Of a DNA stretch of 20,366 nt, positions 1 to 13,201 are shown piece by piece; the stretch's first letter is position 1, and each line of letters starts with the position of its first letter. The notes under the pieces were generated by a model. The model did no database searches and had not been told where the DNA came from. It saw only the letters and a program-made list of their open reading frames with translations. A program made the position numbers and the translations under genes. Origin of the DNA: a virus; IMG/VR virus record IMGVR_UViG_3300017510_000020, positions 1 to 20,366 of that record; one strand, given 5' to 3'.

Positions 1-36
1 CCGCATGATGTAACTTGGCCGACTAAACCGGAGTAA
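1..36 (+). CDS. Possible 3' end of an upstream head/neck gene
   Basis: Frame 1 is open from the window edge and gives PHDVTWPTKPE followed by TAA at 34-36, three bases before the next gene. The other two frames stop earlier (TGA at 6-8, TAA at 11-13). A stop placed immediately before the next start fits the tight gene packing seen everywhere else on this strand. Only 11 residues are visible, so no family can be named. In siphovirus gene order this position would usually hold a head-tail connector or another capsid-module gene. The GGAG at 30-33 inside this tail is the likely ribosome binding site of the next gene. Confidence 0.35.
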   Translation, partial: PHDVTWPTKPE

Positions 37-39
37 AGC

Positions 40-2163
40 ATGGTCGCCTTCGCGCCACTGTCAGCCTTCCCCCTAGCCGATGATGGTGGCAATAGGCTTT
101 TCGCCGCTGAGGATATTCTCAGTGGTGATCCAAATGTCGGTGCGACCGCGTTTGCGGAGAGCCACGGCCTTGGCTCTGACGACATTTCTACGGGCGCACC
201 GGATGTTGGCATAACCGCGCTCGATCAGGACCACAACCTTACTCTTGGTGACATTTCTACGGGCGCACCGGAAGTTGGCATAACCGCGCTCGATCAGGAC
301 CACAACCTTACTCTTGGTGACATTTCTACGGGTCAACCAGGGGTCAGCGACGCTACGATGTCCGAGGATGAGACGTTCGGGTCTGACGACATCCTCAGCG
401 GCGTTCCGCTTGTCACACCGGCGACCCTGCAAGAAGACGAGACGCTCGACGCGGGCAACGTCCTTAGCGGTCAGCCTATCGTCGGGCAGGCAGAAATCGA
501 CCAGAACCACAACCTCGGTTCGAGCGATGTGGCTTCGGGGCAACCGGGTGTTGGCGATGCGGACATGTCCGAGGATGAGACGTTCGCCTCTGACGACATT
601 CTCACCGGCGCTCCGGTTCTCGGCAATCCGACCATCTCCGGCTTCCAAGACATTGGTGCTCCGGCTGACACCCTCACCGGCGCTCCGCTTGTCGGCCAAA
701 CGACGATCACCCAAGACCACAACCTTCACGCCGATGCGGTGGTCACGGGTCAGCCGCTTGTCGGCAACACGAGTGTCGATCAGGATCAAGACTTAAGCGC
801 CGACGACATCCTCACGGGCGCACCCCTTGTCGCGCCGACAACGCTCACCTCGAACCACGACCTCGATGCGAGCGATACCCTGAGCGGCCAGCCGCTTATC
901 GGTCAGACGAGCCTCAGCCAAGGTCACGACCTCGACGCCGACCCGGTGCTCGCAGGTCAGCCCATCGTCAATGACGCAAACATGTCTGAGGACGAGACGT
1001 TCGAAGCGAACGACATCCTCACCGGACAGCCTGTCGTCCAGCCCACTACGCTCACGTCGAACCACGACCTCGACGCCGACTCGATCCTCACCGGACAGCC
1101 TGTCATCGCACCGACGACGATGCAGGAAGATGAGACGCTCAACGCCAATCCGGTGCTCTCCGGGCAGCCCGTCGTCGCTCCAACAAGCATTGACCAAGAT
1201 CACGACCTGTCGTCCGACGACATCCTCAGCGGTCAGCCTGTCGTCCAGCCGACAACGCTCACGTCGAACCATGACCTTGATGCTGACCCGATACTCAGCG
1301 GCCAACCGCTCGTTGCGCTGACGAGCATCAACCAAGATCACGACCTGAGCGCAAACGATATCACCTCCGGTCAACCGCTCGTTGCGCTGACGAGCATCAA
1401 CCAAGATCACGACCTGTCTGCCGATAGCATCGTCTCCGGGCAACCGCTCGTCGCGCCGACGACGTTCCAAGAGGACGAGACGCTCAATGCGAGCGACGTG
1501 CTTTCCGGCAACCCCGAGATCGTCACGACAGACATTGACCAAGACCACAAGCTCGACGGTGACGACGACACTGCCGGGCAGCCCGATCTTGGCCCGTCGC
1601 AGATCACGCAAAATCACTCGCTCGGGTCTCAGGATGTCACGAGCGGCACTCCGGTTGTCGATCTCGGCAACTTTACACAGCATAACATTCTTTTCGCACA
1701 AGACATTTTCTCGGGCGCTCCGACCATTACGCCCGGAGCAGAGGGTGAAGTGCGGCTCATTCCGGGGCCGCGACGCACACCGGCGAACTTCGGATCGCAA
1801 CGCGGTCGTCGCACAAATCGCGCTCTGGCTAGAGACGTGTGCCGCCTGATCGAACATCACGGCTACGGTGTTCGCATACAGTATCGTCTCAGCGGGGGTG
1901 TCTATAACTCGCGCACAGGGCGAATGGAGCAAGGTAAGGTCGAAAGCCAAATTGCACGAGGCGTGTTCATCAACTACAATGACCGGGACATTGACGGAAC
2001 GTCGATCACTGCTGACGACCGCAAGCTACTGCTGAAAGCAGAGGGCTTGGAGCGTGAGCCGCAGAACGGCGACTTCGTTGACGACGAGGTGCGTATCGTG
2101 AATACGCGCAAGATTAGATCGGGCGATGTTGTTCTCGCCTATGTCTGCCAAACCAGAGGGTGA
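40..2163 (+). CDS. Head-closure (neck) protein with 24-repeat acidic N-terminal array
   Basis: This 707-residue protein has two parts. Residues 25-566 are about 24 tandem repeats of 23 residues, with a core like DILSGQPLVxPTTL followed by DQDHDLDAD. They contain almost no Lys or Arg and no Cys. Residues 590-707 form a compact C-terminal domain with the segment DIDGTSITADDRKLLLKAEG, then a short beta-rich end (DEVRIVNTRKI, VVLAYVCQ). That end looks like the small head-closure/stopper proteins that seal the portal-connector channel and receive the tail. Position agrees: next come a gp10-like protein, tail terminator and tail tube. The start ATG at 40 has GGAG at 30-33. Stand-alone head-closure proteins are usually only 100-130 residues, so the repeat array is an added domain, which I infer projects from the neck as a collar or whisker-like fibre. 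The domain call is by sequence pattern only; the array's function is unknown. Confidence 0.7.
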   Translation: MVAFAPLSAFPLADDGGNRLFAAEDILSGDPNVGATAFAESHGLGSDDISTGAPDVGITALDQDHNLTLGDISTGAPEVGITALDQDHNLTLGDISTGQPGVSDATMSEDETFGSDDILSGVPLVTPATLQEDETLDAGNVLSGQPIVGQAEIDQNHNLGSSDVASGQPGVGDADMSEDETFASDDILTGAPVLGNPTISGFQDIGAPADTLTGAPLVGQTTITQDHNLHADAVVTGQPLVGNTSVDQDQDLSADDILTGAPLVAPTTLTSNHDLDASDTLSGQPLIGQTSLSQGHDLDADPVLAGQPIVNDANMSEDETFEANDILTGQPVVQPTTLTSNHDLDADSILTGQPVIAPTTMQEDETLNANPVLSGQPVVAPTSIDQDHDLSSDDILSGQPVVQPTTLTSNHDLDADPILSGQPLVALTSINQDHDLSANDITSGQPLVALTSINQDHDLSADSIVSGQPLVAPTTFQEDETLNASDVLSGNPEIVTTDIDQDHKLDGDDDTAGQPDLGPSQITQNHSLGSQDVTSGTPVVDLGNFTQHNILFAQDIFSGAPTITPGAEGEVRLIPGPRRTPANFGSQRGRRTNRALARDVCRLIEHHGYGVRIQYRLSGGVYNSRTGRMEQGKVESQIARGVFINYNDRDIDGTSITADDRKLLLKAEGLEREPQNGDFVDDEVRIVNTRKIRSGDVVLAYVCQTRG
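112..1737 (+). repeat. Tandem 69-bp coding repeats (23-aa units, ~24 copies)
   Basis: In-frame units begin at 112, 181, 250 and so on. One unit (595-666) is 72 bp; after it the phase resumes at 667 and runs to the last partial unit at 1702-1737. Most copies have diverged in DNA but keep the pattern [DP]-[IVT]-[LTV]-[ST]-G-[QA]-P. Two neighbouring pairs are almost identical: 181-249 with 250-318 (one visible difference, GATGTT versus GAAGTT), and the units starting at 1288 and 1357 over most of their length. The array is coding, not intergenic. Confidence 0.92.
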
Positions 2164-2166
2164 CAC

Positions 2167-2328
2167 ATGGACTACGTTGCAACCGCTAACTTTGCCTATC
2201 ACGGCAAAACGTATTACATTGGGGACGATGCGCCCAAAGCCGAAACCCTTCTGCGCTTCAACCTGATTGAGCCAAAGAAAGTCGAGGAAGATGCAAGCGA
2301 AAGCGTTCACGAAGGGGATGAAGATTGA
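2167..2328 (+). CDS. Small hypothetical neck-region protein (53 aa)
   Basis: The ATG at 2167 lies three bases after the stop of the head-closure gene, and the frame runs to TGA at 2326-2328. The protein starts MDYVATANFAYHGKTYYIGD, has the segment LLRFNLIEP, and ends in a very acidic tail (EEDASESVHEGDED). Short proteins with a GK.Y..GD beta-hairpin followed by an L...LIEP segment are common in this position in siphovirus genomes, between the head-closure and gp10-like genes; that is recalled resemblance. The last 38 bases overlap the start of the next gene in another frame. No function is assigned. Codon use matches its neighbours and the gene fills what would otherwise be a 120-base gap. 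Confidence 0.6.
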   Translation: MDYVATANFAYHGKTYYIGDDAPKAETLLRFNLIEPKKVEEDASESVHEGDED

Positions 2329-2770
2329 GGACCAGGCCAAAGCCTTAAGGCAACAGGTCGGCGCTCTCAAGTATCGCACCTTGGTCAACATGGCCGAGCT
2401 CATTTCGCAGACCAGCCCCGTGGACAGCGGCAACTATGCGCGCAACCACGAAGTCGCGCTCAGAAGCGGCTCCTTCCAAGCGGACGGTGTTCGGCCTGAC
2501 TCGCATAGCCGAGTTAGCCGAGAGGGTGTGCCTCATTACAAGAAAGCCAGAACAGAAGGCTTCGAGGGTATGATGGCCGACATCAACGGCTTCGGGCTTC
2601 TCAACCGTGCGGGACAAGTGCGCTCTCTCGCTGAACCTGAGCAGAACTTCGTATTCCGAAACCGCATGGAGTATGCGAACTTCGTTGAGCGCGAACACGC
2701 GGTCTACGCCCAAGCGCGGCGCGAAATCTCCAATGCCATTGCCGACGCCGTTGCTCAGGTGAAGCGATGA
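2291..2770 (+). CDS. HK97 gp10-like head-tail joining / tail completion protein
   Basis: The 159-residue protein (from ATG 2291) has the layout of the HK97 gp10-like family: an N-terminal helix (MKIEDQAKALRQQVGAL), a SPVDSGNYARNHEV segment matching the TPVDTG-L signature, and a C-terminal NRMEYANFVERE stretch like the family's Y-YVE-GT motif, then a closing helix. These proteins bridge the head-closure ring and the tail terminator. Three starts are possible: TTG 2267, ATG 2291 (GAGGA just upstream) and ATG 2318 (AAGGGG just upstream, at MKIED). Family members usually begin near the MKIED helix, so 2318 is a real alternative. The stop overlaps the next start as ATGA, a coupling junction. Confidence 0.75.
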   Translation: MQAKAFTKGMKIEDQAKALRQQVGALKYRTLVNMAELISQTSPVDSGNYARNHEVALRSGSFQADGVRPDSHSRVSREGVPHYKKARTEGFEGMMADINGFGLLNRAGQVRSLAEPEQNFVFRNRMEYANFVEREHAVYAQARREISNAIADAVAQVKR

Positions 2771-3171
2771 CCGTCACGAACTCTATCCGTGAGGCTCTGG
2801 ATAGCCACTTGGCTGCAACGCCCGACATTCCGCGTGTCGTGTTTGAGAACACGCCCTATGAGCAAATTCCAGACACGCCGCACATTCGCGTTCAGTTCTT
2901 CCCAACATCTCGTCGCCCTGCCGTTAGAGGTCCAACACCGCAGCATCGTCACCAAGGGCTATACAGCATGACCGTGTGCGTCCCGGCCGAATACGGAACA
3001 GGCGCAGGGCTGGAAATAGTTGACCGCCTGATGCAGAGATTCAACGGCTCGACAAATGTGGTGGGTGTGGACTTGATTGTGTCTGTCGAGTATTCTGAAG
3101 CCGAAGGTTCTTTTGAGGAAGAGCCGTTTTACTGTACGCCAGTCCGCGTAGGCTGGTACGTCTACAACTAA
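2767..3171 (+). CDS. Tail terminator protein (DUF4128/gpU-like)
   Basis: This 134-residue protein lies directly before the tail tube gene, where the terminator normally sits. Its pattern fits small tail terminator folds: an N-terminal helix (SIREALDSHLAA), a first strand ending in VVFENTPYEQIPDTPHIRVQ, a GLYSMTVCVP strand, a helix with GLEIVDRLMQRF, and a final strand pair ending in TPVRVGWYVYN. The terminator caps the tube, ends its polymerisation and docks to the head. The start ATG 2767 overlaps the previous stop by four bases. The assignment combines gene order with secondary-structure pattern; I cannot exclude another small neck protein. Confidence 0.7.
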   Translation: MTVTNSIREALDSHLAATPDIPRVVFENTPYEQIPDTPHIRVQFFPTSRRPAVRGPTPQHRHQGLYSMTVCVPAEYGTGAGLEIVDRLMQRFNGSTNVVGVDLIVSVEYSEAEGSFEEEPFYCTPVRVGWYVYN

Positions 3172-3182
3172 GAGGGACGAAA

Positions 3183-4097
3183 ATGGCCTTTTCCCAGGGT
3201 GCCCGCAGTTCGCTGGCCTACATCACCGAAACCGGGTTCGGTCAAACCCCGGCAACTCCCACTCTGGCGTACCTGCCGATCAAGACGCACAGCCTTGATC
3301 TTTCCAAAGAGCGCCTTGAGGGTCAAGACATTCAGCCTGACGAGATGCCTCGCGTTGATCGTCACGGTAACCGCTCGGCTGCTGGCTCCATCGAGGTTGA
3401 CTTTCGCAAGGGCGACTACGATGAGTTCCTTGAATCGGTAATGCGAAACAGCTTCGAAACGGATGAACTGAAGGTTGGCACCACGCCGAAGTTCTTTACC
3501 ATCGAGGATGCGGCTGAGGACAACAGCCAGTTCCGCCTTTTCACCGGCATGACCGTGAGCCAGGCGTCGTTCAGCATTGCGCCGAACCAGATGGTCCAGA
3601 CTACCTTCGAGATGGTCGGTCAAAACGCTACTCAGCAGCAGAGCACGGCTTCGTCTGGCGGAGCCAAGACGCCGATCAGCAACAACGCCCCGTTCGACAG
3701 CTACAACGGTTCGATCCTTGAGGGTGGCAGCGGAATCAACGTGGTGTCGAGCATCGAGTTCAGCATCAACCGCGGCTACGCGCCGACGTTCGTCGTGGGT
3801 TCCGACTTCGCGCCTCAGCTTGAGAACGACCGTGCCATCGTCAGAGGCACCATGTCGCTCTACTACGAGGACGAGACGCTCATCGACAAGTTCCTCAACG
3901 AGCTTGAGACCTCGCTTGAGATCAGCGTTGACGACCCGTCGCAAGCCAATGCGTATACCTTCCTGCTCCCGCGTGTGAAGTTCAACAGCGCCTCTGTGCC
4001 TCTGGCAAACCCGCAGTCGCGGATCATCGAGGTTTCCTTCGTGTCCCTCTACGACGAAACCGAAGAAACGAACCTGAAGATCACGCGGACACCGTAA
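3183..4097 (+). CDS. Major tail tube protein
   Basis: A 304-residue protein starting MAFSQGARSSLAYITETGFG and preceded by AGAGGG four bases before the ATG. The N-terminal ARSSLAYITETGFGQTPATP, followed by a segment rich in D/E and R (KERLEGQDIQPDEMPRVDRH), is typical of the phage tail tube family of alphaproteobacterial phages. It sits between the terminator and the G/GT chaperones, as a tube protein should. It would polymerise as stacked rings around the tape measure. The middle part (about 145-165, TQQQSTASSGGAKTPISNN) is low complexity and looks like an exposed loop or domain linker. At 304 residues it is larger than minimal tube proteins of about 150-200, so it may carry an outer decoration domain. 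Confidence 0.85.
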   Translation: MAFSQGARSSLAYITETGFGQTPATPTLAYLPIKTHSLDLSKERLEGQDIQPDEMPRVDRHGNRSAAGSIEVDFRKGDYDEFLESVMRNSFETDELKVGTTPKFFTIEDAAEDNSQFRLFTGMTVSQASFSIAPNQMVQTTFEMVGQNATQQQSTASSGGAKTPISNNAPFDSYNGSILEGGSGINVVSSIEFSINRGYAPTFVVGSDFAPQLENDRAIVRGTMSLYYEDETLIDKFLNELETSLEISVDDPSQANAYTFLLPRVKFNSASVPLANPQSRIIEVSFVSLYDETEETNLKITRTP

Positions 4098-9009: not shown

Positions 9010-9407
9010 ACGAATACATCAAGGAGGTCAAGGACACCCCATTCGAGTGGGGTGTTCACGACTGCCTGACGTTCACCAACGAGGCTTGGCGGCGTATGCA
9101 CGGTCACGGTTGGGCAGACGACTGGCTTGGTCGCTATATGATCGAGCACCCCTACGGCATCAGGGCGATGCGACCAGAGCAACTACGCTCAGAGTTCGGC
9201 TACTTCTCCTTCGCGGAGGCTGTTGACCAAAGGCTCACACGCATCAAGCATGTTCCGCCACGGGGTGCATTGGTGGCAACCAAGAAGGCAGAGCGTTGGG
9301 CTATCGGCCATGCGCTCGGTATCTGCAACGGCATCAAGTGCGCGTTTCTTTCTCACAACGGTGTGGTATACTTACCCGTAGATGATGTAGACAAGGCTTG
9401 GGTATGA
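8988..9407 (+). CDS. Tail-tip NlpC/P60-like peptidase (DUF6950-type)
   Basis: A 139-residue protein whose signature is FEWGVHDCLTFTNEAW at residues 19-34, placing the candidate nucleophile at Cys26 in a W-G-x-H-D-C context. The C-terminal half has IGHALGICNGIKCAFLSHNG-VVYLPVDDVDKAW, the usual ending of this phage family. The family is distantly related to NlpC/P60 peptidases, and in gene transfer agents and siphoviruses a peptidase holds this slot, where it is thought to cut peptidoglycan at DNA entry. ATG 8988 lies 22 bases inside the previous gene with GGAG five bases upstream. The catalytic His/acid residues cannot be assigned by eye, so activity is inferred. Confidence 0.75.
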   Translation: MGPQERLNEYIKEVKDTPFEWGVHDCLTFTNEAWRRMHGHGWADDWLGRYMIEHPYGIRAMRPEQLRSEFGYFSFAEAVDQRLTRIKHVPPRGALVATKKAERWAIGHALGICNGIKCAFLSHNGVVYLPVDDVDKAWV

Positions 9408-12400
9408 AAAGCGGTCTCCCATACAACGTAATGCGTCACCGCGACTGGGACTTTGCGCCTCGTGAACCGGTGACAACATCTGTCGCGCTGGCGATCTTCG
9501 GCGGGGGTGTGGCGACCGCAGGTCAGCTTGCTGTTGCATCTTTTCTCGTCAATCTCGCCGTCACTGCCGTCACGTCTTGGGCTATCAACGCCCTAACCCC
9601 GAAGCCTGATTTCAGTTCCGCCGACTCTGGCGGCATCATGGTCAACGCCCGTGAGGCTGCTGCACCTCAAGATTTCCTCTACGGCCAAGTTCGCAAAGGC
9701 GGGATCGTAACCTACTACGAGTCCACGGGCGACAAGAACAAGTTCCTGCACCAGATCATCGCACTCGCCGGTCACGAGGTCGAAGAGGTCGGTGACATCT
9801 ACATCAATGATGAGCCAGTTACGGTTGATAGCGATGGTTTCGTAACCGGAGACAAGTGGAAGTCAAAAATCCGCGTTCAGAAGTTCGACGGAACGCAGAC
9901 ATCCGCACCCGCCGATCTTCTTTCAGAGTCCAATCAGATCGGCGCCAATTTCGTAGGTAACGGCATTGCCTACCTCTATGTGCGCTACGAGTTCGACCGA
10001 GACGTGTTCCCTAACGGCGTGCCGCTCATCACCGCTGTGGTCAAGGGGAAAAAGGTTTTCGATCCTCGAACGGGCGTCACAGCCTACAGCAACAACGCTG
10101 CACTCTGTCTGCGCGACTACATCGTGTCCGAATATGGGCTTGATGATGACGACATCGATGATCTGGTCTTTTCTTCCGCCGCGAACGTCTGCGACGAGGC
10201 CGTGAGCCTGAGTGGCGGTGGCATCGAGCCGCGCTACACCATGAACGGTATCATCAAAGCCAACACCAACCACGGCGACGTGCTCAACCGCATGGTCACG
10301 ACCTGTGCGGGAACCCTGTTTTGGGGTGCGGGAAACTGGAAGCTGACAGCCGGTGCCTACAGCGCAGCCAGCAAGACGCTGACCCTGGACGATCTGCGCG
10401 GGCCGATAAGCCTCAACACCAGAACCAACCTGCGCGACCAGTTCAACGTCGTCCAAGGCACCTTCAACGACGCCGATCAGCGGTGGATCACGGTAGACTA
10501 TCCGCCGATCAGGAGTGCGGCATTCATCGCCCAAGACAATGATGTTGAGCAGCCGCTTGATTTCGAGTTACCGCTCACCACCAGTTCCGCAACGGCCCAA
10601 CGCCTTGCCAAGTTGACGTTGCTTCGAGGGCGCGAGCAGATGTCCCTGAGCGCGGACTTCGGGCTTAATGCCTTCGACGTTGAGGTTGGCGAGATCATCG
10701 CGCTCGACATCGACCGCTACGGCTGGAGCAACAAGGAGTTCGAGGTCACGGGTTGGAGGTTTGGGCCGAGCGATGAGGGTGATACTCGCGTAACGCTTAC
10801 CCTCAGAGAGACGAGCGAAGCGGCGTTCGATTGGAACGCCGAAGAAGAAGACATCATTGGAAATGACAGCAATCTTCCTAGTTTTGCTGACGGCCTTGAA
10901 ATTTTCGGCTTGACCGTTTCGGGTGGTGGTCGCACTCAAGGTGATGGCACTTTCGTCAATTCGGCCATTGTGTCTTGGACAGCCGTTAGCAACTCCTTCA
11001 TTGAAAGCTATGAAGTCCAGTGGAAGCCTGTCGCGGATAGCTCGTATTCTTCGGCCTTCACGACCGACAATACGCTTGAAGTGTCCCCTCTCGTAGATGG
11101 GGTGGAGTACATCTTCAGGGTCAGAGCCATCTCCGTCCTTGGTAACCGAGGCCCCTTTAGTACAATCACGTTTACTGGAGGCGGTGACGAGACAGCACCA
11201 GGTCTTCCTACTGACATTACAGCGGAAGGTGGGTTCAAGTATATCACTGTCAAATGGACTAACCCCGCCGACACGGACTTGAATTTCGTAGAGGTGTGGG
11301 AGAATACTTCTAACAGCGTGTCTGGCGCAACCGAGGTGGGGATCGCCTCAAGCAACCAGTTTACTCGCACCGGCTTGGGTCTGAATGAGACCCGTTACTA
11401 CTTCCTGCGCTCTGTTGACTACAGCGGCAACCAGTCTGCATTTACCGCAGGAGTGTCTGCCACGACAACCTTTGTAGATGATGCTGACTTTGAGAACGGC
11501 ATTAGGTCACTGTTTGAAGAGCAAGGTCTTTACCCTATTGAGGATGTAGATAGCCTGCCTCCGTCTGGTATCCTTAATCGTAAGGTGTTCAATCGTGCTG
11601 ACGGTAAGCTCTATGAGTGGAATGGTTCTTCTTGGGTTCTTGTAGTTTCTGCTGTTGAGGCTCCAGACATCTCCGGTGAGTTACAAACAAACCAGATTGC
11701 TTTGGACGCAGTAACCAGCGATTTGATAGCCAACGATGCTGTTCAATCTGAGAACATAGCAAACCTTGCAGTTAATGAAGCCAAGATTTCTGATAGTGCT
11801 ATCACAACCACTAAGATAGCTAATGCTGCTGTTGAGGAAGGTAAACTTGCGTTAAGTGCTGTAACTGCTGATAAGATTGCCAACCTCGCAGTTAATGAAG
11901 CTAAGATTGCTAATAGTGCTATCACAACAACTAAGATAGCTAATGCTGCTGTTGAGTCAGGGAATCTTGCCAACGATGCCGCAACAGAAGCTAAGATTGC
12001 AACTAGCGCAATTACTGAAACCAAGATTGCCTCAGGTGCGATAACAACACCAAAAATTTCTGCCGGGGCAGTAACGGCTACTGAGATAGCTGCTGGATCA
12101 ATTACTACAAGTAAAATAGATGCTGGCGCAGTAACTGCAAGTGAAATAGCTGCTGGCACTATCACCTCTAATGAGATAGCTACTAATAGTATTACTGCTG
12201 GGAACATTGCTGCTGGGGCTATCACGGCCAGTGAGTTAAGTACAAATTCGGTTACTGCTATAAAGATAGCTTCCGATTCAATCACTACTGGTAAAATTGC
12301 TGCTGGTGCAGTTACTGCTGGTGAAATAGCTGCTGGCAGCATAACCTCTAATGAGATAGCCACTAACACCATCACTTCTGGCGAAATAGCTTCTGGTGCT

Positions 12401-13201
12401 ATCACTACAAATGAGCTTGCGGCAGGGTCTGTTACCGCCACAGAGATAGCTTCTGAAAGTATTATTTCATCAAAGATAGCCGCTGGTGCAGTAACTGCTA
12501 CAGAGATAGCTGCTGGCAGTATCACCTCTAATGAGATTGCCTCTGATACAATTACCGCAAATAACATTGCAACTGAGACGATCACGGCTGACGAGATTTC
12601 TGGTAACACGATCACTGGTGATAAGATTGTAGCCAATACTATTACGGGTGGTCTCCTTGCTACTTCTGGTATTATAACTAACTCGGCTCAGATTAACGAT
12701 GCACTGATTACTAATGCTAAGATCGAGAACGGGGCGATAACCAACGCCAAGATCGACAACGCCGCGATCACCAGCGCCAAGATCGACGATCTAGCCGTCG
12801 AGACGATCAAAGTGGCTGACCGGGCTATTACGTCTCAAGTAGGAGTAGAGTCATCTGGTGGGTCAACCACAGGAAGCTCTTGGGTAACAGTTTCGTCGCT
12901 CAGTTTTTCGGCGAATGGAGGCGAAGAAGTGTTGCTCGGCGCGTCTTTTAATTGGGTGGCAGTAAGTTTTGAGTTTACTGAAACAGCCAGAGTTAGGTTG
13001 GTATTTAACGGGTCCACGGTTAGGAGCGCCTCTGAAAGTCTAAAAGACGAAAGTAAAGGTTACAAACCCGCTTTTATTTCCTCGAAAACTGCAAGTTTTG
13101 GAACCAACTCGCTTTATATACAAGTTAAGCTAGACAGACCCGATAAGGGGAGCTCTTCGGTCAGCGACGCAACTCTTTTCGTACTGATCGCTAAGAAATG
13201 A
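9404..13201 (+). CDS. Tail tip protein: J-like hub, FnIII-like domains, decapeptide fibre
   Basis: A 1265-residue protein from ATG 9404 (AAGG seven bases upstream; TTG 9398 is a poorer start). A hydrophobic N-terminal stretch (about 24-60) leads to the central hub (about 75-485) with QDFLYGQVRKGGIVTYYEST, HQIIALAGHEVEEVGDIYIN and a helix-strand core like lambda gpJ. Two fibronectin-III-like domains follow (about 490-590 and 595-690). After a linker containing FNRADGKLYEWNGSSWV come about 37 ten-residue repeats (768-1145) and a 120-residue beta-rich C-terminus that could bind a receptor. It probably closes the tail tip and determines host recognition. The fibre-coding DNA is AT-richer (37-47% in lines counted) than the hub region. 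The stop overlaps the next start. Confidence 0.85.
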   Translation: MKSGLPYNVMRHRDWDFAPREPVTTSVALAIFGGGVATAGQLAVASFLVNLAVTAVTSWAINALTPKPDFSSADSGGIMVNAREAAAPQDFLYGQVRKGGIVTYYESTGDKNKFLHQIIALAGHEVEEVGDIYINDEPVTVDSDGFVTGDKWKSKIRVQKFDGTQTSAPADLLSESNQIGANFVGNGIAYLYVRYEFDRDVFPNGVPLITAVVKGKKVFDPRTGVTAYSNNAALCLRDYIVSEYGLDDDDIDDLVFSSAANVCDEAVSLSGGGIEPRYTMNGIIKANTNHGDVLNRMVTTCAGTLFWGAGNWKLTAGAYSAASKTLTLDDLRGPISLNTRTNLRDQFNVVQGTFNDADQRWITVDYPPIRSAAFIAQDNDVEQPLDFELPLTTSSATAQRLAKLTLLRGREQMSLSADFGLNAFDVEVGEIIALDIDRYGWSNKEFEVTGWRFGPSDEGDTRVTLTLRETSEAAFDWNAEEEDIIGNDSNLPSFADGLEIFGLTVSGGGRTQGDGTFVNSAIVSWTAVSNSFIESYEVQWKPVADSSYSSAFTTDNTLEVSPLVDGVEYIFRVRAISVLGNRGPFSTITFTGGGDETAPGLPTDITAEGGFKYITVKWTNPADTDLNFVEVWENTSNSVSGATEVGIASSNQFTRTGLGLNETRYYFLRSVDYSGNQSAFTAGVSATTTFVDDADFENGIRSLFEEQGLYPIEDVDSLPPSGILNRKVFNRADGKLYEWNGSSWVLVVSAVEAPDISGELQTNQIALDAVTSDLIANDAVQSENIANLAVNEAKISDSAITTTKIANAAVEEGKLALSAVTADKIANLAVNEAKIANSAITTTKIANAAVESGNLANDAATEAKIATSAITETKIASGAITTPKISAGAVTATEIAAGSITTSKIDAGAVTASEIAAGTITSNEIATNSITAGNIAAGAITASELSTNSVTAIKIASDSITTGKIAAGAVTAGEIAAGSITSNEIATNTITSGEIASGAITTNELAAGSVTATEIASESIISSKIAAGAVTATEIAAGSITSNEIASDTITANNIATETITADEISGNTITGDKIVANTITGGLLATSGIITNSAQINDALITNAKIENGAITNAKIDNAAITSAKIDDLAVETIKVADRAITSQVGVESSGGSTTGSSWVTVSSLSFSANGGEEVLLGASFNWVAVSFEFTETARVRLVFNGSTVRSASESLKDESKGYKPAFISSKTASFGTNSLYIQVKLDRPDKGSSSVSDATLFVLIAKK
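11705..12840 (+). repeat. 30-bp decapeptide repeats nested in 180-bp and 120-bp blocks
   Basis: About 37 in-frame units follow a pattern like GAVTATEIAA or SITSNEIAT: small residue, A/S/T, I/V, T, two variable residues, K/E, I, A, small residue. Higher order is visible. Positions 12121, 12301 and 12481 start three related 180-bp blocks (GAVTA-EIAAG-ITSNEIA in each). Positions 11761 and 11881 start two related 120-bp blocks (LAVNEAKI then SAITTTKIANAAVE). Such short beta-strand repeats suit a trimeric beta-helical fibre, which is an inference. No spacers are present, so it is not a CRISPR array. Confidence 0.9.

Follow-up and report, generated by a model that had tools for sequence, protein, structure and literature searches.

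How does a head-closure domain come to stand at the end of a long acidic repeat array, and where in the virion would such a protein be found? This question is raised by an open reading frame (ORF) near the start of a viral contig from IMG/VR (IMGVR_UViG_3300017510_000020; 20,366 nucleotides, hereafter the window). Positions 40-2163 of the + strand form one open frame of 707 residues, in which a short N-terminal motif, the array, a linker and a head-closure (Hc1, or stopper) domain follow one another.

The array covers residues 24-566 (109..1737, +) and was delimited by TRF, lag identity and composition. It consists of 24 tandem units starting at residues 24, 47, 70 and so on to 554, each 23 residues long except one of 24, and towards the end of the array they become degenerate. 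Every one of the 23 units of 23 residues has Gly6 and Pro8. Identity at a lag of 23 residues was 43%, compared with 8% on average and no more than 12% among 1000 shuffled sequences; the preliminary description of this locus had likewise counted about 24 copies. It had also described residues 25-566 as nearly free of Lys, Arg and Cys, and this part indeed contains 90 Asp or Glu and 16 His but a single Lys or Arg and no Cys (pI 4.05, versus 9.7 for the C-terminal 141 residues of the ORF). TRF reported 98% over positions 181-332 of the window, and one neighboring pair of units is identical at 66 of 69 bases, which points to recent duplication of a copy; by its sequence, then, the array is still changing in length through duplication.

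We searched the array against Pfam and, by sequence, against the PDB, and neither search gave a match. AlphaFold, applied to the N-terminus and seven units (39 sequences), returned no monomer fold (pLDDT 43.6, pTM 0.19), and the array is possibly an obligate oligomer or a flexible chain. The invariant Gly-x-Pro and the hydrophobic residues at regular spacing are reminiscent of a beta-type fibre shaft, for which AlphaFold gave no fold with seven units. Binding of Ca2+ by the array, which had been suggested earlier, found no support: there was no RTX or EF-hand match in Pfam, and the unit consensus contains neither GGxGxD nor an EF-loop motif. Matches to Streptomyces plasmids (25-30% identity; ATPase and WD40 genes) were rejected as matches of composition. 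A second long repeat region, with units of a 15-residue type (TxxKIAxGAVTxxEIA), lies at 9398-13201 of the window in a protein that resembles the central tail fibre J and also has an fn3 domain; it is separate from the array.

The Hc1 domain comprises residues 599-707 (1834..2163 with the stop codon, +). Residues 599-706 matched phrog_161, head closure Hc1, with an E value of 4.6e-13 when the whole protein was used and 2.5e-14 when the C-terminal part was used alone. An AlphaFold model of residues 567-707 (38 sequences) reached a pLDDT of 82.5, with its first 25 residues uncoiled, and its top structural matches were stopper or neck chains (Z 10.5 to 8.8), namely the stopper and neck proteins of phiCD508, phage 812, T1, FCWL1, Pam3 and Chi. 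On the 3' side follow a neck1 or tail-completion-like gene (2267..2770, +; phrog_169, E 0.0096 in the window and 1.8e-4 for its homologue in the relative L108, with the gene order kept in relatives), a tail terminator gene (2767..3171, +; PF13554, E 1.6e-12; phrog_179, E 9.6e-18) and a tail tube gene (3183..4097, +; PF18906, E 1.3e-40); the 5' side of the ORF lies beyond the contig end. Profile, predicted fold and gene order thus bear out the earlier identification of the C-terminal domain as a head-closure protein, and a head-closure fold, whose absence had been named as counter-evidence, was returned by both profile and structure. The extents had to be revised: the domain begins at about residue 599 and not at 590, where a 118-residue C-terminal part had been placed, and residues 567-598 (1738..1833, +) are a basic, non-repeat linker recognized by composition, with no match in any frame.

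In profile, in predicted fold and in its place before neck1, tail terminator and tail tube, the window domain is like phrog_161 and the solved stoppers (phiCD508, 812, T1, Pam3 and SPP1 gp16). It differs from them in context. Hc1 relatives stand alone and do not exceed 145 residues, whereas the window protein has about 600 additional N-terminal residues with the 24-unit array. The size expected of a single Hc1 domain is therefore exceeded (707 residues versus no more than 145 in 70 other distinct Hc1 sequences), and the expectation that neck proteins normally lack such an array is well founded, as 0 of these 70 has one. The Hc1 label fits the domain, and the whole 707-residue protein is a fusion. 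We found no account of a fusion of this type among open papers.

Next, we characterized the array by its relatives. Among 50,697 phage records, a protein search with the array matched only gp57 of Roseobacter phage CRP-6, a hypothetical protein (MK613348). Searching IMG/VR with a DNA pattern derived from the repeat yielded 100 stretches. In about 80 of these, the encoded protein shows a conserved N-terminus (MLGFSPLASAPLADDG or MFGTSPFASATFAG), an array that can reach 36 or more of the 23-residue units, and a C-terminus that varies; a second DNA pattern (QDH type) gave no matches in this search. We define these proteins here as the CRP-6 gp57-type repeat-fibre family, which amounts to about 90 viral loci (CRP-6-like marine phages). 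The members tested had no informative match in Pfam or NCBIfam, and PHROGs gave only weak matches of unknown function. The window ORF carries both marks of the family, the 23-residue units and the N-terminal motif at residues 1-23 (MVAFAPLSAFPLADDGGNRLFAA; 40..108, +; motif HMM E 9e-8). Because the family N-terminus is present, the ORF reads as a complete repeat-fibre protein plus Hc1 and not as an Hc1 protein with an odd tail, and the earlier idea that the array is an extension of a neck protein gives way to that of a separate family that became fused. CRP-6 gp57 shares the repeat family and the N-terminal motif with the window ORF, but it is a standalone protein of 422 residues, with a BppU_N gene directly after it and a separate Hc1 gene 4.1 kb downstream.

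The earlier suggestion of similar repeats in prophages found no support. When the repeat pattern, which would miss more divergent repeats, was run on about 85,000 bacterial and archaeal genomes, only one of 74 matches was a true relative: a Rhodobacteraceae single-cell contig (L208) in which the repeat protein and BppU_N are adjacent. A search of bacterial genomes with the tail tube found no relatives. CRP-6 infects a Rhodobacteraceae strain (PMC6918029), and since both its host and L208 belong to this group, the host of the window phage is probably Rhodobacteraceae as well.

There is variability in the body and C-terminus of the repeat proteins. In L053, L075, L113, L125, L142, L157 and L159, the array is fused to a domain of about 265 residues, which occurs alone at L046:2566-3375 and L077:592-1419 and has no match in PHROGs. 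At the same gene position, L108:2-1195, L179:328-1506 and L181:3-410 encode quite different repeats (PAADIAIAAxAP type; GFGxxxFxG type in L181), and the L179 protein retains the family N-terminal motif. The fibre body seems to be exchangeable.

For comparison of gene arrangements, we retrieved 80 close relatives by means of the tail tube and 16 loci by means of an Hc1 alignment; Hc1 used directly as a protein query gave no match in phage records, and a first Hc1 alignment was too divergent for searching the collection. Wherever visible in relatives, Hc1 is an ORF of its own. Where both genes can be seen, the repeat gene lies upstream of Hc1, at a distance of 4-6 kb in most loci but of 1.8 kb in L179 and L180. 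The closest Hc1 proteins start with MRLxKDV; the window reads RALARDV at this place, the original start codon being lost. The window domain is 43-54% identical to its standalone relatives, which are 43-81% identical among themselves, and judged by these values it is not decaying and is at most slightly more diverged than its peers. A lost start and a little-diverged domain are what would be expected of an established fusion.

In L106, L108, L173, L179, L181, L184, L187, L188, L191 and L194, what lies between adaptor and Hc1 varies, this slot being occupied by a sialyltransferase-like gene (phrog_4603, E 5e-23 in L108), sulfotransferase-like genes or a SAM methyltransferase. Judging from translations only, HNH-type homing endonuclease-like ORFs occur among the neck and tail genes at L173:3155-4399, L173:8211-8999, L181:3501-4343 and L188:1150-2412.

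To place the repeat fibre in the virion, we turned to its genomic neighborhood. The repeat gene of 67 of 89 relatives has a gene of about 107 codons directly behind it, the two most often overlapping by 1 nt, and 11 of 13 aligned partner proteins matched Pfam BppU_N (best E 1.1e-11). This arrangement is frequent, not universal, as some relatives have no BppU_N gene behind the repeat gene; the window itself, a 20,366-nt contig with 39 bp 5' of the ORF, contains no BppU_N match and no adaptor gene. In L108:1195-1938, L179:1503-2246 (also L180) and L181:410-1156, the protein in the adaptor position carries BppU_N fused at its N-terminus, and a profile of that adaptor-position protein finds solved phage connectors (E 4e-4 to 0.01), one of which is the head-to-tail protein gp72. 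Fusion partners usually act together. Since some phages join BppU_N to the adaptor and the window, independently, joins the fibre to the next ring, the stopper, we infer from these gene arrangements that repeat fibre and BppU_N pair up to form a neck appendage.

BppU_N is the N-terminal part of the lactococcal siphophage baseplate protein BppU and of the neck passage structure (NPS), which has been proposed to form collar and whiskers (PMC6669499, PMC4493119). The collar or whisker reading in the preliminary description thereby gains independent support for its neck location, from the BppU_N partner and the adaptor fusion of this partner in relatives. As in the lactococcal NPS (TP901-1, 936 group), a fibre-like protein is here linked with BppU_N and, by inference, with the neck. 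In the NPS, however, BppU_N and fibre are one protein, whereas they are two genes in the relatives of the window; the window instead has its fibre attached to the stopper, and neither BppU_N nor a carbohydrate-binding module was found. Lacking BppU_N, the window protein is not classed as an NPS, though it may work in an NPS-like way.

On balance, we lean towards the reading that two virion genes which are normally separate have been joined in frame in this ORF, and that the N-terminus of the stopper bears a long fibre that replaces neck attachment through BppU_N. In the neck, the Hc1 domain would sit where stoppers usually do, with the adaptor on one side and the tail terminator on the other. 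In the AlphaFold model the stopper N-terminus begins with a helix, and in Anabaena phage A-1(L) gp7 forms a hexamer whose N-terminal helices hook onto the ring above it (PMC10966104); by this analogy the array would emerge from the stopper N-terminus near the adaptor interface and project as a long, strongly negative fibre. There would probably be one fibre per stopper subunit and, if the stopper is hexameric as in solved necks, six chains of about 550 repeat residues each would extend from the neck of a particle. The fusion would thus substitute for the BppU_N-mediated attachment of the array in relatives. The sequences themselves show the fusion in this contig, what its two halves are, their separate coding elsewhere and the joining of BppU_N to the adaptor in three relatives; presence in particles, the neck position of the array, the fibre shape and the copy number are predicted.

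Long, repeated appendages on a neck ring, as proposed here, are known from the neck fibres of A-1(L) (gp82/gp81/gp80; PMC10966104). Those are separate proteins on the gp5 ring that form a bead-chain of repeated trimers, whereas the window protein is a single chain fused to the stopper, and the two are likened by architecture and not by sequence. The TP901-1 collar is reported to be non-essential for infection (PMC6669499), and by analogy the likeliest function of the fibre would be an accessory role in adsorption or at the surface. More broadly, and with somewhat less than even confidence, we propose that CRP-6-like phages have an undescribed two-gene collar system (fibre and BppU_N base) which has repeatedly been hard-wired onto neck rings, in some lineages by way of BppU_N and the adaptor and in the window by way of the fibre, turning the stopper ring into a fibre-bearing collar.

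As the fusion was seen in one metagenomic contig, with the ORF starting 39 bp from the contig end and the junction also near that end, it could instead stem from an assembly chimera or from a deletion in a defective variant that joined the end of a repeat gene to Hc1 and removed BppU_N, adaptor and modification genes. That all 70 other distinct Hc1 sequences are unfused would fit such an event, as would a normal gene before the repeat gene and the distance of only 1.8 kb from repeat gene to Hc1 in L179, relative to which the window is without the intervening 1.8 kb (a BppU_N::adaptor fusion and modification genes). The upstream gene, present in the window by its 3' end (1..36, +) and read as a tail assembly chaperone, ends with PHDVTWPTKPE*, and the tail assembly chaperone of L180 (PF16778, E 4.9e-16) ends with VIWPTKPE*; the like ending, and a 3-nt gap before the repeat gene that window and L180 have in common, indicate that the 5' side is normal, and the same ending also precedes the repeat gene in L011, L030, L045, L051, L054 and L102. 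At the junction itself, however, the frame is kept while both the stop of the repeat gene and the start of Hc1 are absent, and Hc1 is retained from its third residue with only the start codon gone, which a random join would rarely yield. Between the halves stand the 32 residues of the linker, which in three frames matched no remnant of the genes that precede Hc1 in relatives, and codon-position GC is similar on either side. We consider an artefact of this kind unlikely.

The fusion might also be real yet uninformative about the standalone protein, which would then belong to the head or to the tail tip as a fibre or decoration. The repeat gene does stand in a fibre cassette, after tail-fibre-type chaperones or enzymes of collagen-modifying type, it precedes protease and capsid genes in relatives, and in seven loci the array is fused to the ~265-residue domain, which has no assigned place. 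Two different fusions to adjacent neck proteins, together with the pairing with BppU_N, are nonetheless hard to derive from gene order alone, and we find this location quite improbable. Rather doubtful is a variant of our preferred fusion in which the gene gives two products, the full-length protein and a free Hc1 of 137 residues begun at an in-frame GTG just past the array (V571; 1750..1752, +). Read from the sequence, this candidate start has an SD-like GGAG at 1735-1738 and an AGGG just upstream, but the spacing is not ideal (11 nt and 4 nt from the GTG, respectively) and no second fusion was found for comparison. That only some stopper subunits would bear an array, as two products would entail, is accordingly just as doubtful.

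If repeat fibre and BppU_N do form a neck appendage, the fusions act as natural cross-links that join the pair to two adjacent neck rings, and they indicate a likely location and partner for a repeat protein that is abundant in marine phages but has no name. Phages of CRP-6 type reportedly occur throughout the ocean and reach high abundance in coastal waters (PMC6918029), and an accessory neck fibre could bear on how they find Roseobacter cells. For cultured CRP-6, the prediction is that gp57 and gp56 are located at the neck.

Finally, the region directly upstream of the repeat gene contains joined enzyme genes at L001:4138-5907 (CRP-6 gp58), L002:3778-6150 and about 40 further loci. United in them are a GT25 glycosyltransferase, a PLOD-type glycosyltransferase (PF25342, E 3e-40 in L002) and a 2OG-Fe(II) oxygenase, a combination also seen in collagen lysyl hydroxylases of animals. 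In L002 the enzymes adjoin a collagen-like protein rich in G-x-K-G, and a collagen-modifying pathway of phages is possible.
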